Below are positions 46,977-53,605 of a stretch of 64,000 bases of DNA, piece by piece. Below the pieces are notes generated by a model. It saw only the letters and a list, made by a program, of their open reading frames with translations, did not search any database and had not been told where the DNA came from. Each line of letters begins with the position of its first letter. Position 1 is the first letter of the stretch. The DNA is from Dickeya fangzhongdai (GTDB lineage: Bacteria > Pseudomonadota > Gammaproteobacteria > Enterobacterales > Enterobacteriaceae): NCBI RefSeq assembly GCF_002812485.1, contig NZ_CP025003.1:3968001-4032000 (forward strand), in the 5' to 3' direction. A program made the translations under genes and the position numbers.

Positions 46977-48563
46977 ATGCGTTTGAAAAATCTCTCCATC
47001 CGCACCGGTCTGCTGACATTGCTGGCCGTCATCACCCTGTTGTTGCTGCTGGTCAGCGGTATGGGGATTCAGGCCATCAACAAGAGCCGCGCCTCCCTGA
47101 CGGCGCTCAATCAGATTCAGGGAGAACAACTGGGCGCGTTGATGAATGGTTATAACCTGACGCTACGAGCCAGAGCCTCCGCCACGCTGGCGGTGCGCAA
47201 AATCGAAATCGGTTTGCTGGACGTCGGGGCCAAGGAAACCGAAAAGCTGGAAGGTTATGTACAACAATCGGAAAAAGAGATTCGCCAGTTCAGCAGCGTG
47301 GGAACCAATGGCGAACAGGAGCAGAAACTGGCGCAGCAGGTGTTAAAAAGTTATCAGGACTACCTGAATCAGGGACTAAAACCGATGTTGGACTCCCTGA
47401 AAAAGCAGTACACCGACGAATATTACACCTTGCTGGAAAACAACCTGACGCCCCTGAGCGACGCATTTGATAAATCCATCCAGAACTTCCGTAGCTACTC
47501 CCAGCAACTCTCCGAACAACATATCCAACAGGCCAATAACAACGAACGGATAATGCTGATGCTGATCGCGTTCGCCTGCCTGCTGTCGCTGCTGCTGGTA
47601 CTGCTGGGTTGGCTGGCGCTGCGCCACATGCTGCTCAAACCGCTGGATCACGCCATTGAACAGCTGGAACACGTGGCCTCCGGCGATTTGACCCGCCGCA
47701 TTACTCAGGGGGGCAACAATGAACTGGGCCGGCTGAGCGACGCCATCGAGCGCATGCAGCTGGCGCTGCTGGATTCGGTCAGTCAGGTGCGTGACGCCAG
47801 TCATCAGATCGATCAAGGCAGCCGCGAGTTGTTCAGCGGCAACCGCAATCTGGCGGAACGGACCGAAGAGTCGGTCGCGGCGCTGGAACAGACCGCCGCC
47901 AGCCTGGAAGAACTGAGCGCGACGGTTAAACGCAACGCCGACAACGCCGAGCTGGCGCATCAGTTGACCAATCAGGTTTCCGACACCACCGATCGCGGCA
48001 ACGAATCCGTTAACTACGTGGTGGAAAAAATGCGTGAAATCGCCGCCAGCGCCAAACGAATCAGCGATATTCTCGGCGTTATCGACGGCATTGCCTTCCA
48101 GACCAATATTCTGGCCCTGAACGCGGCGGTGGAAGCGGCCCGCGCCGGCGAGCAAGGTAAAGGCTTCGCGGTGGTGGCAGGCGAAGTGCGGAGTCTGGCG
48201 CAGCACAGCGCTCAGGCGGCCAAAGAGATCCGCACCCTGATCCTGGATTCTCAGTCCCATGTGTCGGAAGGGTTGGACCTGGCTGCCAAAGCCGGTACCA
48301 CCATGGACGACGTGGCGGAAGAGATCAACCGTATCACCAGCCTGATGAAAGAGATCTCCTACGCCTCTCAGGAACAGCATCGCGGCATCGAACAGGTGAA
48401 TATCGCCTTCACCCAGATAGACAAAGTGGCCCAGCAAAACGCCTCGCTGGTCAAGGCTTCCGCCGACACCACCCAATCGCTGGAAGAGCAGTCTCGCCAG
48501 TTGGTGCAGGCGATGGCCATGTTCCGTATCGAAGACCACACCGCGCTGCTGCAGGCGCGCTGA
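46977..48563 (+). CDS. Methyl-accepting chemotaxis protein (four-helix-bundle sensor)
   Basis: 528 residues. Membrane helices at about 10-32 and 193-215 bracket a helical periplasmic sensor, followed by HAMP and the signalling domain with [24 protein letters not shown]. It is paralogous to the receptor at 19297-20883: same length, and conserved sensor phrases such as IQG-Q/E-L and TLRARA. Ligand unknown. The end (FRIEDHTALLQAR) has no NWETF tether. The ATG follows AGGA. A 10-bp hairpin follows the gene. Confidence 0.92.
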   Translation: MRLKNLSIRTGLLTLLAVITLLLLLVSGMGIQAINKSRASLTALNQIQGEQLGALMNGYNLTLRARASATLAVRKIEIGLLDVGAKETEKLEGYVQQSEKEIRQFSSVGTNGEQEQKLAQQVLKSYQDYLNQGLKPMLDSLKKQYTDEYYTLLENNLTPLSDAFDKSIQNFRSYSQQLSEQHIQQANNNERIMLMLIAFACLLSLLLVLLGWLALRHMLLKPLDHAIEQLEHVASGDLTRRITQGGNNELGRLSDAIERMQLALLDSVSQVRDASHQIDQGSRELFSGNRNLAERTEESVAALEQTAASLEELSATVKRNADNAELAHQLTNQVSDTTDRGNESVNYVVEKMREIAASAKRISDILGVIDGIAFQTNILALNAAVEAARAGEQGKGFAVVAGEVRSLAQHSAQAAKEIRTLILDSQSHVSEGLDLAAKAGTTMDDVAEEINRITSLMKEISYASQEQHRGIEQVNIAFTQIDKVAQQNASLVKASADTTQSLEEQSRQLVQAMAMFRIEDHTALLQAR

Positions 48564-48612: not shown

Positions 48613-48869
48613 GTCTAACCGAACGCTCAGCCTTTCCCAGCCCGGCAGATTCACGCTTTCAGTGCATAACACAGCATGACGCACAACAAACGGGCGCAGT
48701 ATGCCTGTTTTCAGCGCCAAACCATGCAACCTGCACAGTGAGCCACGCCCTCGCCGCCCGGCTGCCGCTAACCGAAAAACCGGCACGCTCCTTGCTGTAA
48801 CTCCAAGGACGTCATTCCACGGACATTGATTGCTGTTCCCCATGTCGGGGCAAAACCAGAGGGACCATC

Positions 48870-49781
48870 ATGCCGGTATTTCATCACAGGAACCTGCCTC
48901 ATCATCATACCGAAAGTGAGCAGGACAGGTGGCGAAGCGACTTTCTGCTCCAGTTGTTGACCTGCGATCATCCGGATCTGCCTCTCCTCCATCAGCGCGC
49001 CGCCAGGCTGCAATTGCCGCTGGACAGGCCCCATCGGGTAACGGCGTGGCGTCTGTCCGGTATGCCGACGCTGTTTTCCCCGTCTTATGCCGGCTGCCCG
49101 GAAGCGCAACTGCACGGAGCACGCCAGCAGTTGCAACAACAGCTACAGGAACTCATGTCGGAATACCTGCCGCCGGTCATGCTGGGCGACCTCTGTCTGC
49201 TGGCGCTGCCGGCCGACAGCCCGCTGCTGCGCCGCGGACATCAGGACTTCACCGCATTCCGTCAGGCTATCAACGCCGATATCGCGCCGCTGACGCTGTT
49301 TGGCGGGATTTCCGGCCCGATCAACGCGGCCGAGCACTATCGGCGCGGGCTGAGCGAAGCGCGGCAGGCGCTTAACGCAGCAGAAAGCATGCGCCCGGAA
49401 AAAGGCCTGTGCGACTACACTGATCTGGGGGTGTTGCAATTGCTGACTTCCGTCAGCGACCCGACATTGCTTACCCGCTTTATGCACGACGCGCTGGGTA
49501 ATCTGGTGGAGAATAACCGCAAATCGCCCAATTTGCTGATTGAAACGCTGGATGCGGTATTGCAGGAAAACGGCAATCTGATCAAAGCCGCTGAGCGGCT
49601 GACAATCCATCGCAATACGCTGCATCAGCGCCTGCAACGTATTGAACAGCTGTCGGGCGGCGCGTTGAACGATCCGCTGTTTCGCCTCAACGCTTCCGTC
49701 GCGCTATTAGTCTGGCGCCTGTCTGGTTCACAGACGCAGGGAACCGCCATACCGTCGTTCAAGACAACCTCACAGGAGTGA
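48870..49781 (+). CDS. Short PucR/CdaR-type transcriptional regulator
   Basis: 303 residues. The C-terminal end is a PucR-type helix-turn-helix (about 232-285): NLIKAAERLTIHRNTLHQRL and then LNDPLFRLNASVALLVW. The central part (about 22-190) resembles the GGDEF-like CdaR domain of the same regulators. The N-terminal ligand domain of full-length PucR proteins is missing, and the ATG has GAGGGA before it, so this looks like a complete short form. It is followed two bases later by the cytosine-deaminase gene and is probably its regulator. PucR-family members often control purine or pyrimidine catabolism. Confidence 0.8.
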   Translation: MPVFHHRNLPHHHTESEQDRWRSDFLLQLLTCDHPDLPLLHQRAARLQLPLDRPHRVTAWRLSGMPTLFSPSYAGCPEAQLHGARQQLQQQLQELMSEYLPPVMLGDLCLLALPADSPLLRRGHQDFTAFRQAINADIAPLTLFGGISGPINAAEHYRRGLSEARQALNAAESMRPEKGLCDYTDLGVLQLLTSVSDPTLLTRFMHDALGNLVENNRKSPNLLIETLDAVLQENGNLIKAAERLTIHRNTLHQRLQRIEQLSGGALNDPLFRLNASVALLVWRLSGSQTQGTAIPSFKTTSQE

Positions 49782-49783
49782 TT

Positions 49784-51034
49784 ATGAAGATTATCAACGC
49801 CGCCCTGCGCCATCAGGCCGGGCTTCACACGCTGCAACTGCAGGACGGCCTGATTGCCGCGATGGTCCCCCAGCCCGCCATGCTGCCCGCCACGCCGGAT
49901 ACCATCGACGCCGCCGGGCAACTAGCGCTCCCGCCGCTGGTGGAACCGCATATTCACCTTGATGCCGTCCTGACCGCCGGCGAACCGGAATGGAACATGA
50001 GCGGCACGCTGTTTGAAGGCATTGAACGCTGGAGCCAGCGCAAGGCCGTCATCACCCACGAAGACACCAAGCGCCGGGCGCATACCGCCATCGGCATGTT
50101 GCGCGACCACGGCATCCAGCATGTGCGTACCCACGTCGATGTCACCGACCCGTCGCTGGCGGCGCTGGAAGCCATGCTGGAAGTTAAAGAAGAAGCGAAG
50201 GAGCTGATCGACCTGCAAATCGTCGCCTTCCCGCAGGAAGGCATCGAGTCGTACCCGGCAGGTCGCCAGTTGATGGAACGCGCCATCGCACTGGGCGCCG
50301 ACGTAGTTGGCGGGATTCCCCATTTTGAGAACACCCGTGAACAGGGCGTCAGCTCGGTGAAATTCCTGATGGATCTGGCGGAACGCACCGGTTGTCTGGT
50401 GGACGTGCATTGCGACGAAACCGACGATCCGAACTCGCGTTTTCTGGAAGTGCTGGCGGAAGAAACGCGGGTGCGGAACATGGGTGCCCGCGTCACCGCC
50501 AGCCACACCGTGGCGATGGGTTCCTATGACAACGCCTACTGCTCAAAACTGTTCCGTCTGCTGCGCCGCTCGGGCATCAACTTCGTTTCCTGCCCGACCG
50601 AAAGCATCCACCTGCAAGGGCGCTTCGACACCTTTCCCAAACGTCGCGGCGTCACCCGGGTAGCCGAACTGGACCGTGCCGGCATGAACGTCTGCTTCGG
50701 GCAGGATTCGATCAAGGATCCCTGGTACCCGCTCGGCAACGGCAACATTCTGCGCATTCTCGACGCCGGGCTGCATATCTGCCACATGATGGGGTATCAG
50801 GATCTGCAGCGTTGTCTCGATTTCGTGACCGACAACAGCGCCAAAGCGCTGCATCTGGGCGATGGCTACGGCCTCGCCGTCGGCCGCCCGGCCAACCTGC
50901 TGATTCTGGATGCGGAAAACGACTACGAAGCGGTGCGGCGTCAGGCCAAGGCGCGCCTGTCGATACGCCACGGCAAGGTCATCATGCAGCGTGAACCGGA
51001 GCTGATTCGGTATCCGAACCGCCAACCTGATTAA
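49784..51034 (+). CDS. codA: Cytosine deaminase homologue, predicted 5-methylcytosine deaminase
   Basis: 416 residues of the amidohydrolase family, collinear with E. coli CodA from LPPLVEPHIH onwards. Iron ligands His56, His58, His209 and Asp308, and catalytic Gln151, Glu212 and His241 are all present at a constant offset of five from E. coli numbering. The residue after the metal-binding Asp is Ser309 (GQDSIKDPW), where E. coli has Asp314 (GHDDVFDPW). Published work showed that CodA homologues lacking Asp314 deaminate 5-methylcytosine to thymine, and also 5-fluorocytosine. The start at 49784 has AGGAG at ideal distance; a GTG at 49778 overlapping the pucR-type stop is an alternative. No codB permease gene is adjacent. 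Confidence 0.88.
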   Translation: MKIINAALRHQAGLHTLQLQDGLIAAMVPQPAMLPATPDTIDAAGQLALPPLVEPHIHLDAVLTAGEPEWNMSGTLFEGIERWSQRKAVITHEDTKRRAHTAIGMLRDHGIQHVRTHVDVTDPSLAALEAMLEVKEEAKELIDLQIVAFPQEGIESYPAGRQLMERAIALGADVVGGIPHFENTREQGVSSVKFLMDLAERTGCLVDVHCDETDDPNSRFLEVLAEETRVRNMGARVTASHTVAMGSYDNAYCSKLFRLLRRSGINFVSCPTESIHLQGRFDTFPKRRGVTRVAELDRAGMNVCFGQDSIKDPWYPLGNGNILRILDAGLHICHMMGYQDLQRCLDFVTDNSAKALHLGDGYGLAVGRPANLLILDAENDYEAVRRQAKARLSIRHGKVIMQREPELIRYPNRQPD

Positions 51035-51099: not shown

Positions 51100-51198
51100 A
51101 TGAGCTCATTCAATGCTATCATCAACCGTATTAGCTCACACCTGAACTGGTACGCTTACGGCACAGAGGTTGACCTAAGCTGGCAGGCAGCGTTGTGA
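51100..51198 (+). CDS. Possible 32-residue peptide
   Basis: An ATG frame starting MSSFNAIINRISSH and ending EVDLSWQAAL. An AGGA lies directly against the ATG, which is too close to be a good ribosome site. Its TGA overlaps a GTG that opens the next frame. It may equally be the remnant of a longer gene. No family is recognised. Confidence 0.25.
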   Translation: MSSFNAIINRISSHLNWYAYGTEVDLSWQAAL

Positions 51199-51212
51199 TA
51201 GGAGGGGACGTT

Positions 51213-51491
51213 ATGAGCATCACGCAAGTTTTTCAAAAGGGCTCAGACCACACGAATATAATTCGTGGATTATCGCCAAACAAATGGAGAAAGAAATTGA
51301 TACTAGAAAAATCTAAAGTGGAGACTAGTTTTATTCTACCATATATGGACGCACTGGGTGATGTAAGTGCTGATTCGATGCGGTTTGTGACCACATATCC
51401 GGCGGCCAAAACCTGCCGAAGCGGGTTATGCAATAACTTTTATTCAGGGAATGAAACCAATTCTCAGGCACGTACCGCGGGATATGATTAG
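51213..51491 (+). CDS. Unassigned small protein
   Basis: 92 residues from an ATG with a strong ribosome site (AGGAGG, seven bases upstream). It reads MSITQVFQKGSDHTN, then a basic segment (SPNKWRKKLILEKSK) and a Cys/Asn-containing end. No signal peptide, membrane segment or known family. Base composition is lower in GC than the neighbouring core genes. Its last 48 bp overlap, on the opposite strand, the end of the 247-codon gene, so at least one of the two ends has probably been altered by rearrangement. Confidence 0.4.
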   Translation: MSITQVFQKGSDHTNIIRGLSPNKWRKKLILEKSKVETSFILPYMDALGDVSADSMRFVTTYPAAKTCRSGLCNNFYSGNETNSQARTAGYD

Positions 51492-52187
51492 CACAATGAA
51501 TTTTTGCACCATGGCCTGAAGTTTATTTGGCTCCCAAGAGGAAATGTCAAACAGACGGCCTTTATTCCACGGTAAGAAACCGGTGTGTCTGCCAATCCCT
51601 TTCTCACCGAGAACGTCTTCAAACAATTTGCCCTTCTCGTTGTAGATCCGCACCTCACCAGCACGAACCATCGGGCCAGCCCAAATGCGCGCGCCAGGTA
51701 TAGTCTGCATATCATCACAAACCAAATGCTCATACCAGTTAAGCAAGAACAGGTAAGTCCTGCTCATGATGCCCTTGTGATGATTTGTGGGCTGAATGTA
51801 TGCCCCTGCAACTTGGAAACAGCCTACGGGCTGGCCACCCTCGACAAAGCTGTAGTTTCGAAGTCCAACCCGACCGACGGTGACATTCTGGGTCTGATCA
51901 ATGATCCCTGAGCGAAAAAGCTCCTGAATAATGCCTTGCTCATCCAAACCATCGTCTTCATGGTCGAAAATGAGGTTGCTCAGCTCAGCGTCACTGATAT
52001 GTGCGCCTACACACTCAATAAGAATGTACCGAACAATGTCATCTTCGGGATCGAGGATTTCATGCTCTGACACTTTGAAAAGAGATCTGGAGGCAAGAAG
52101 GAAACCAGAACGAACAAAAAGAGTGGCTCCGGTATGAGGCCACTCTCTTAAATCTTTGATGTAGGATTCTATCAGTGTAGGTGCCAT
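51444..52187 (-). CDS. Unassigned protein, second gene of a two-gene cassette
   Basis: 247 residues, no signal peptide or clear membrane helix. The N-terminal part has a beta-rich stretch (ATLFVRSGFLLASRS), an acidic DPEDDIV, then two helices (HISDAELSNLIF and DEQGIIQELFRSGII), a winged-helix-like pattern. The C-terminal half is rich in aromatic residues and Gly (MSRTYLFLLNWYEHLV, RIWAGPMVRAGEVRIYNEKG, GRHTGFLPWNKGRLFDI). I do not recognise the family. The last 15 or so residues (FIVLIISRGTCLRIGFIP) run into the overlap with the plus-strand frame and may not be original. Its ATG overlaps the end of the upstream gene by 16 bp, so the two are translated together. Confidence 0.6.
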   Translation of the reverse strand: MAPTLIESYIKDLREWPHTGATLFVRSGFLLASRSLFKVSEHEILDPEDDIVRYILIECVGAHISDAELSNLIFDHEDDGLDEQGIIQELFRSGIIDQTQNVTVGRVGLRNYSFVEGGQPVGCFQVAGAYIQPTNHHKGIMSRTYLFLLNWYEHLVCDDMQTIPGARIWAGPMVRAGEVRIYNEKGKLFEDVLGEKGIGRHTGFLPWNKGRLFDISSWEPNKLQAMVQKFIVLIISRGTCLRIGFIP

Positions 52188-52567
52188 TTCTCAGCAGAAC
52201 CATTAGCTTTTCTGGTGCTTATAATTCTACCATTAGTATCGAAAAAACGACGAATAGAATGTTCAATAACCTCAACGAAGCCAGCTATTGCTTTAGCCAG
52301 CTCAGGGTATTGTTTTGCAGGTTTAACGATGAAACGAACACGATCACCGAGCAGGACTGCTTCGGCCAACGGCTTAACCGTAGCATCAGCGTTGTCCACA
52401 TCATCCTTGAAGGTGATAATAAAGTGAAAGTCTTCAGGCGCGACCATACCTTCATTGTCGAGAGTGCGCACCTGGAGCAAATGCTGATTGAAGGTATGCG
52501 TGGCAATGATGCTGGTATGATCACGAATAGTCTGAATTGAACGCTTTTCGTTCAGTACATCATGCAT
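52172..52567 (-). CDS. Unassigned protein, first gene of a two-gene cassette
   Basis: 131 residues. A mixed alpha/beta domain: LLQVRTLDNEGMVAPEDF, FHFIITFKDDVDNADATV and AVLLGDRVRFIVKPAKQ, then an amphipathic helix (YPELAKAIAGFVEVIEHSIRRFF) and a polar end. No known family is recognised. The ATG follows AAGGTGG. On this strand a TTGACG lies about 170 bp upstream, a possible -35 element. The gene overlaps the next by 16 bp. Both are richer in A/T than the flanking core genes, suggesting acquisition. Confidence 0.6.
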   Translation of the reverse strand: MHDVLNEKRSIQTIRDHTSIIATHTFNQHLLQVRTLDNEGMVAPEDFHFIITFKDDVDNADATVKPLAEAVLLGDRVRFIVKPAKQYPELAKAIAGFVEVIEHSIRRFFDTNGRIISTRKANGSAEKWHLH

Positions 52568-53026
52568 GTGTCCACCTTAGCTGTGGGCGCTTTGGCCTCT
52601 ACAGCGAAAACCGCGAGCGTTTCAGATGCTGCGGCCAACTAAACCGTGGGTGTAATCCACCTCTCCGGCGTTCTCCTGCAAGGGAGAAAAGGCTACGAGT
52701 ATGCGTAGAACTTCATTTACTACTGACAGATTCGTCAACAGTTGGCTAAATTTACGTCATTAATCAAAAATGATCAAGCCACTGGTAAGTGTTTTATCCA
52801 GCAAACAAAGGGGATTTACTGGGTTGGCAATGCTAATCGTAGAGTTCTTCAGTCAGTGTATCTTTGGACTGACCCCACACCGGTAGACGATCCTGCCCTA
52901 TAATAAGATTCATGAATCGCAGCAGCTTCGGAAGTCATTTTTGATAACAACTTCCGCTCCTCACTCAAAGCCGACTGTCAAATTTAACTGTTCGCTGCCA
53001 GAGAAAACTATCAGCCCAAGTTTGAG
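52568..53026. other. Degraded A/T-rich DNA with gene remnants
   Basis: No complete gene. An open frame without a start codon runs from 52727 to 52903 on the plus strand (58 codons, including GKCFIQQTKGIYWVGNANRR) and looks like the end of a lost gene. A small inverted repeat (ttctcc/ggagaa) is near 52670-52690. The promoter of the minus-strand cassette should lie in 52568-52750. Confidence 0.45.
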
Positions 53027-53232
53027 CTAATACACGATATAATGTTTTCAACAGTGAAGGGCAGTACGCACAAGGCTCGGAAGATCTGGTGCTGAAAAAC
53101 AGGCTCGGTATTACCACCCCTGATGACATTGACGGTGCCGAATTAGTACTACTGGAAAAACTGTATCATTTCGTCTTTGAAGATCACTTTCCCGCCAACC
53201 AGCCACTCAGTCTCGACCTGATCAGGGCATGA
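53027..53232 (+). pseudogene. Remnant of a Fic-family (AMP-transferase) gene
   Basis: A start-less frame, stop at 53230-53232, encoding YNVFNSEGQYAQGSEDLVLK, then NRLGITTPDDIDGAELVLLEKL and ending QPLSLDLIRA. This matches the conserved N-terminal region of Fic proteins (PGS-VLKN-LGIT, then an acidic helix leading to the Fic core). The frame is closed by stops on both sides: upstream there is no start codon and downstream the catalytic HPFxxGN motif is absent. It is therefore a broken gene, originally perhaps part of a Fic toxin-antitoxin module. Confidence 0.6.
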
Positions 53233-53266
53233 AACGCGCTTTGGTGCCGATGACATACTGGGTTAA

Positions 53267-53458
53267 TCAAGCACTAACGGGTGGGTGAACAGCCAAACTC
53301 AGGTAAGCGAACTTATCCCGCTGCTCGTCCAGTGAAGAAGCAATCATGCTGGAAGACTGGCCGGTTTCAATGGCTGTCGATGTCGCCACAGTACGGATGA
53401 TTTGTTCGCGAGAAGGCATAACATACTGCTCATTCCGGTGCTTTTGGTTGACAGCCAT
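53267..53458 (-). CDS. Small unassigned protein beside the Fic remnant
   Basis: 63 residues with a very strong ribosome site (GGGGAGGA, four to five bases before ATG). It reads MAVNQKHRNEQYVMPSREQI, then IRTVATSTAIETGQSSSMI and an Ala/Val end. The segment STAIET is reminiscent of the (S/T)xxxE(G/N) inhibitory motif of Fic antitoxins but lacks the final Gly/Asn, so the link is weak and suggested mainly by its neighbour. The orientation, convergent with the Fic remnant, is not that of a normal antitoxin-toxin pair. Confidence 0.4.
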   Translation of the reverse strand: MAVNQKHRNEQYVMPSREQIIRTVATSTAIETGQSSSMIASSLDEQRDKFAYLSLAVHPPVSA

Positions 53459-53605
53459 ATCGTCCTCCCCATGTTGGTCTGTTTATTATACATGCAACCT
53501 GGCATGAAGTAATCCTGTGCTGAAAGCAAAAGGAAACCCTCCCGATCTGTTTAGGCACATTGCCGCCCCGGCAACACACCATGACCTTCACTGGCATCCA
53601 GATTA

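Follow-up and report, generated by a model that had tools for sequence, protein, structure and literature searches.

Kpn00632 of Klebsiella is described in the available excerpt of PMC6186785 as a 5-methylcytosine deaminase with Ser at the site of residue 314 of CodA, the E. coli cytosine deaminase. According to the same excerpt, which cites Hitchcock 2014, an Asp-to-Ala change made CodA active on 5-methylcytosine. As for regulation, sigma54 control is reported for the broad group COG0402, 42% of which are cytosine deaminases (excerpt of PMC12316311), which means that such control has already been published, in general terms, for some cytosine deaminases. A search by title in a limited literature collection returned none on this operon, nor on the deaminase gene in Dickeya. 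Judged from the sequence comparisons below, the features that look new are the trimming of the operon and the conserved sigma54-type promoter in front of it.

The window, which is the whole stretch of 64,000 nucleotides of Dickeya fangzhongdai DNA that was analysed, contains the following deaminase gene and translation signal:

49784..51034, + strand: predicted 5-methylcytosine/cytosine deaminase, 416 aa, orthologue of Kpn00632 (from the ORF, the alignment and the tree)
49774..49778, + strand: ribosome-binding site AGGAG (direct reading), adjoining the pucR stop codon at 49779-49781

The ORF starts at the ATG at 49784 and ends with the stop codon at 51032-51034. Aligned with E. coli K-12 CodA, its residues 56, 58, 151, 209, 212, 241 and 308 correspond to CodA His61, His63, Gln156, His214, Glu217, His246 and Asp313 (literature numbering, one below the position in the NC_000913 protein). 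The original prediction had given these ORF limits, all of these metal and catalytic residues and a Ser in place of Asp314; the alignment recovers each of them and places the Ser at residue 309, encoded by the TCG codon at 50708-50710. The protein has the features of the Kpn00632 type, namely a CodA-family amidohydrolase with the seven metal and catalytic residues and with Asp314 replaced by Ser, and does not carry the E. coli-type CodA signature (Asp314, L-V-N at 277-279, His312).

The alignment comprised 108 sequences: the window deaminase, Kpn00632, E. coli CodA and those of 105 loci. One gene split over two frames (L094, L110) and two distant sequences less than 30% identical (L108, L109) were left out. 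The CodA-314 position is occupied by Ser in 93 sequences, by Asp in 14 and by Cys in one (L107). T-E-S at 277-279, Gln312 and Ile315 are found in 93 of the 94 non-Asp sequences, the exception being L107, while all 14 Asp sequences have L-V-N at 277-279, His312 and Val315. Because these residues covary with a non-Asp residue at 314, Ser at this position reads as a fixed feature of the clade and not as chance. L107 itself, from genome G052, is a distant homologue (45% identical) with CodA-like Leu277, Asn279 and His312 beside its Cys, and possibly has another specificity.

The window deaminase is 80.3% identical to Kpn00632 over 412 residues and 56.6% identical to E. coli CodA over 415. Its best match among solved structures is 4r7w/4r85/4r88 (E 8.5e-224), labelled cytosine deaminase; we take PDB entries 4R85, 4R88 and 4R7W to be Kpn00632 of K. 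pneumoniae. At the active-site and nearby positions the window enzyme agrees with Kpn00632 in 25 of 27 cases, differing at 311 and 316. A quick maximum-likelihood tree was built from 82 of the 108 aligned rows, 26 having been dropped by hand for thinning. The Ser clade, which holds the window deaminase and Kpn00632, stands apart from the 14 Asp rows with an SH-aLRT support of 100, and the Asp rows hold together at 77; support is SH-aLRT only, with no bootstrap, and the outgroup L107 drew a tool warning as a long branch. The phylogenetic check proposed with the original prediction therefore groups the window sequence with Kpn00632 and not with E. coli CodA. Given this grouping and the 25 matched positions, 5-methylcytosine deamination is the expected activity, and the prediction of a 5-methylcytosine deaminase stands in that form. 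The enzyme appears to be of a known type, a close relative of the Klebsiella enzyme reported to convert 5-methylcytosine to thymine. Its nearest named relatives are from Dickeya species (88-95% identity), and members of the clade are also found in Klebsiella, Pseudomonas and Burkholderia. In Dickeya, Lonsdalea, Brenneria and Burkholderia, proteins publicly annotated as "cytosine deaminase" fall in a group that has a 5-methylcytosine-type active site, as far as residues were read in loci of these genera.

Upstream of the deaminase, a regulator gene and a conserved block were delineated:

48870..49781, + strand: truncated PucR-type regulator, 303 aa, with GGDEF_2 and HTH_30 and without the N-terminal PF07905 (domain search)
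48662..48685, + strand: conserved block GTGCA...GCACA, found upstream of codB in Prodigiosinella and Lonsdalea and of the truncated pucR in Dickeya-type genomes

The pucR stop codon lies 2 bp ahead of the deaminase ATG. Five PucR proteins were tested: those of Prodigiosinella L007, Lonsdalea L006 and K. oxytoca L052 have 411 aa and contain PF07905, GGDEF_2 and HTH_30, and PF07905 was not found in those of the window and of D. oryzae L003. Of 567 confirmed stretches, the best 80 were used to compare neighbourhoods, and 78 have at least 2.6 kb upstream. In 30 of these 78 loci, K. oxytoca L052 included, the deaminase follows a PucR-type regulator and a CodB-like permease of approximately full length. 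The permease occurs without a full PucR in six (L011 has a short PucR fragment) and is reduced to its first 50 codons and a short tail match in two, Lonsdalea L006 and L009. PucR or a fragment of it stands alone in three (Dickeya L002 and L003, Brenneria alni L008), and neither gene is nearby in 37. This graded loss of permease and sensor domain within one family forms a natural series for the trimming of a salvage operon.

The 306 bp before the window pucR resemble the DNA upstream of codB in Prodigiosinella L007, whose permease is CodB-like (PF02133), with 83% identity over 30 bp (E 2.5e-4) and a second match of 80% over 25 bp (E 0.13). Ten upstream regions of this kind align in several blocks. 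Since this DNA matches the codB-upstream DNA of relatives, codB and about 134 codons of pucR are missing between the old promoter and the present pucR; the lineage of the window has lost codB and the first third of pucR. In the alignment, a short PucR without codB is found in seven of nine same-genus genomes; in G001 and G006 pucR is gone as well, and a chemoreceptor gene adjoins the deaminase. The DNA read upstream of the deaminase, 6 kb in three of the nine and 1.5 kb in six, contained no codB in any of them. The best candidate for a codB remnant between the chemoreceptor gene and the window pucR (E 0.18) was not convincing and was rejected. The original prediction had named a short PucR regulator, rather than codB, as the neighbour. 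The short PucR is indeed adjacent, but the contrast misleads, as the order codB-pucR-deaminase occurs in 30 of the 78 loci among the best 80 of 567 and codB has been lost here.

The chemoreceptor gene (window 46977-48563), of the TarH type, keeps its position ahead of the operon in loci of Dickeya, Lonsdalea and Prodigiosinella. Where pucR is gone, namely in Brenneria L010 and L012 and in G001 and G006, it is the immediate neighbour of the deaminase gene. Between the deaminase and a pilT-like gene, window positions 51100-53500 are poor in GC (mostly 0.44-0.50, with about 0.6 in the surroundings), possibly through a recent insertion. This stretch contains two minus-strand ORFs, 51444-52187 and 52172-52567, which match no Pfam family and gave one weak PADLOC match (E 0.0088).

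The DNA ahead of the regulator gene contains two candidate control elements:

48781..48796, + strand: sigma54-type promoter CGGCACGCTCCTTGCT, 11 of 12 scored positions, placed likewise before the operon in other lineages
48681..48695, + strand: NtrC-like match GCACAACAAACGGGC, weakly supported, agreeing with GCAC-N7-GTGC at 7 of 8 positions and lying some 100 bp ahead of the promoter

Matches of a first scan for GGCAC-N5-T[TC]GC fell in the codB coding sequence of Klebsiella, Pantoea, Pseudomonas and others, where they reflect a conserved G-T-M-F-A, and were discarded; the scan was restricted to DNA ahead of the operon start. Among the best 80 of 567 stretches, a sigma54-type element scoring at least 9 of 12 lies 52-81 nt before codB in 36 of the 38 loci where a codB start is present; the two exceptions, Burkholderia L050 and L058, score 6 and lack the site despite having codB. 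In all seven Dickeya-type regions, an element scoring 10 or 11 lies 70-122 nt before the short pucR. After removal of near copies, 24 of 28 upstream regions score at least 10 and 26 at least 9. By comparison, none of 117 control starts of non-overlapping ORFs reached 10 and six reached 9; among the 79 of these controls that are mostly intergenic, three reached 9. An earlier control of 332 stretches before ATGs, much of it coding because internal ATGs were counted, gave 0.6% at 10 or more. The scores of the 28 regions sum to 283, against 88.6 +/- 20.4 upon first-order Markov resampling (largest of 2000: 161). Near-consensus -24 GG and -12 GC elements at a position conserved across lineages, with scores reaching 9, were found in 13 of 14 hand-picked lineages, which include Burkholderia L050, without site (shuffled mean 0.92, largest 4).

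Taken one at a time, the sites are less telling: for each of the 36 positive loci, a score as high is reached by 1% to 20% of random 200-bp stretches drawn from the same locus, and an exact match like that of the window, present in 36 of 100 shuffles, carries no significance by itself. Modest for single loci, the promoter score becomes striking when the loci are taken together. The scan demanded GG and GC, which makes their fixity uninformative; it did not demand the C after GG or the T before GC, and both are invariant in the 26 regions scoring at least 9, while most flanking columns hold less than 0.6 bit. The 200 bp upstream of E. coli codB reach at best 7 of 12, and in a small control of three further CodA-type codB upstreams one scored 8 and two had no site. 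In ten loci without intact codB and pucR, the highest score within 200 bp upstream of the deaminase is 9, reached in L010 and L012 by a site within the chemoreceptor gene; sigma54-type control is therefore not general in the Ser clade. For NtrC-like sites the enrichment is weak (94, compared with 85.1 +/- 2.1 and at most 91 in 500 shuffles), and the NtrC gene is present in the window genome. The sigma54-type promoter suggests nitrogen scavenging, which gives the deaminase a testable role.

Orthology with Kpn00632, the residue set, clade membership, the losses of codB and of the N-terminal part of PucR and the conservation of the promoter sequence are established by this analysis. The explanation that, taken whole, we hold to be probable is that of a Kpn00632-type deaminase orthologue under sigma54 control in nitrogen limitation, which scavenges nitrogen or pyrimidine from a trimmed operon. 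From these data we infer catalytic activity, sigma54 transcription under nitrogen limitation, and nitrogen or pyrimidine scavenging as the purpose of the deaminase. The enzyme would work as a metal-dependent amidohydrolase in which Ser in place of CodA Asp314 leaves room for the 5-methyl group. It would hydrolyse 5-methylcytosine to thymine and ammonia and probably accept cytosine too. The operon would be transcribed by sigma54, with NtrC as the likely activator because the truncated PucR shows no AAA+ domain. In the genus of the window, the old operon promoter now stands ahead of the truncated pucR and the deaminase, which leaves the substrate to enter by another transporter or to arise inside the cell.

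The window genome was searched for genes that bear on this scheme. No match to the PF00145 cytosine methylase was found in it, so 5-methylcytosine would come from outside the cell; the congeners G003 and G007 have C5-methylases. Thymidine phosphorylase is present. The RutA and D-hydantoinase/dihydropyrimidinase models gave no match over cut-off in this genome; by these two routes the ring would not be opened, and the cell could use the amino nitrogen and recover the base. Uptake could be served by permeases encoded elsewhere in the genome, where two NCS1 and four NCS2 matches were found. The idea that the two NCS1 permeases are the operon's own, moved, was rejected, as both are far away and in other contexts. 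The first shows no match to operon permeases at E 1e-8; the second, which matches them at 24-27%, stands beside a LuxR-type regulator (our own reading of the translation). The first belongs to an allantoin/hydantoin-like cluster (G000 C1:3881000-3896000, L113), where our own reading of the translations finds amidase-like genes with it. Recycling of the cell's own 5-methylcytosine was also rejected as a purpose, because the window genome gave no PF00145 match and methylases do not track the Ser type: a C5-methylase (E 1e-30 or better) is found in 17 of 24 Ser-type and 56 of 75 CodA-only genomes (p 0.79).

This lack of tracking is also what one would expect of a general cytosine deaminase, in which Ser at 314 broadens the substrate range but the enzyme would act in vivo mainly on cytosine released by RNA and DNA turnover, activity on 5-methylcytosine being incidental. 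We take this to be a serious possibility, if one that falls somewhat short of persuading us. The window deaminase is the only CodA homologue found in its genome, and the related L007 operon has a CodB-like permease. Among 217 family genomes, 24 have the Ser type and 79 the CodA type, and the two coincide in four against 8.7 expected (Fisher p 0.04), as if they replaced each other; this count ignores kinship and assigns types by best-hit score (Ser type at least 720 bits, CodA type at most 523 bits), not by residues, and four genomes do keep both. Moreover, 93 of 94 non-Asp sequences share the changes at 277-279, 312 and 315 along with the one at 314, a pattern suggestive of selection on something different from the substrate of CodA. 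Dedicated salvage of 5-methylcytosine from the host plant, the ecological reading of the original prediction, seems unlikely to us. Dickeya are plant bacteria and provide the nearest named relatives, and the outside source needed by the window genome is of mild help to this reading. However, the gene has no adjacent permease, codB being absent from the upstream DNA read in all nine same-genus genomes, congeners do have C5-methylases, and the clade extends to Klebsiella, Pseudomonas and Burkholderia, many of which are not known to be tied to plants.

A decaying locus, stripped of permease and regulator parts and with the deaminase as a remnant due to be lost in turn, would account for the graded losses, including the internally cut codB of Lonsdalea L006 and L009, the loss of codB and of the PucR N-terminal part in seven of nine same-genus genomes and the further loss of PucR in G001 and G006. 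The deaminase match of G004 (C1:825152-826407; L094, L110) is also split over two frames, by a frameshift or a sequencing error. We nevertheless regard decay as improbable in view of the substitution rates. Of 18 pairs tried, four gave no deaminase value and L007-L089 had no usable dS. In all seven same-genus pairs, which share members, the deaminase has a dN/dS of 0.05-0.12 and the truncated PucR one of 0.17-0.32. Both genes look constrained, and the trimmed locus is thus probably still in use; its sigma54-type promoter is kept as well. A faster decay of the truncated PucR was considered and rejected: the ratio of PucR dN to deaminase dN is 2.5-4.0 in the seven same-genus pairs, much like that of the seven other pairs with both values (2.5-6.6 in six, 0.58 in one).

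The preferred reading, a Kpn00632-type deaminase in a trimmed operon under nitrogen control, can be widened, though we put this forward only tentatively. The Kpn00632-type operon may belong directly to the sigma54/NtrC nitrogen regulon in several proteobacterial lineages, unlike E. coli codBA. A deletion in the genus Dickeya may then have joined its promoter to a sensor-less PucR and the deaminase, turning substrate-inducible uptake and deamination into a response to nitrogen status alone, for methylated bases that the cell does not make itself.

Compared with known systems, the predicted window promoter shares with sigma54/NtrC nitrogen-control promoters the -24/-12 consensus, the GG-N10-GC spacing and a steady distance from the operon start, whereas its NtrC sites are only weakly matched. 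The regulator shares GGDEF_2 and HTH_30 with PucR-type regulators (PF07905, GGDEF_2 and HTH_30) and lacks PF07905. With E. coli CodA the deaminase has the family and the metal and catalytic residues in common at 57% identity, but CodA has Asp314; in E. coli codBA, codB directly precedes codA with no PucR between, whereas the window locus has PucR and no adjacent codB. Beside the Kpn00632-type system, the window locus has no adjacent codB and its regulator is truncated. The enzyme itself, unlike Kpn00632, has Gly for Ala at CodA 311 and Lys for Gln at 316, and shares with it, at 80% identity over 412 residues, Ser at CodA 314, T-E-S, Gln312, Ile315 and the clade.
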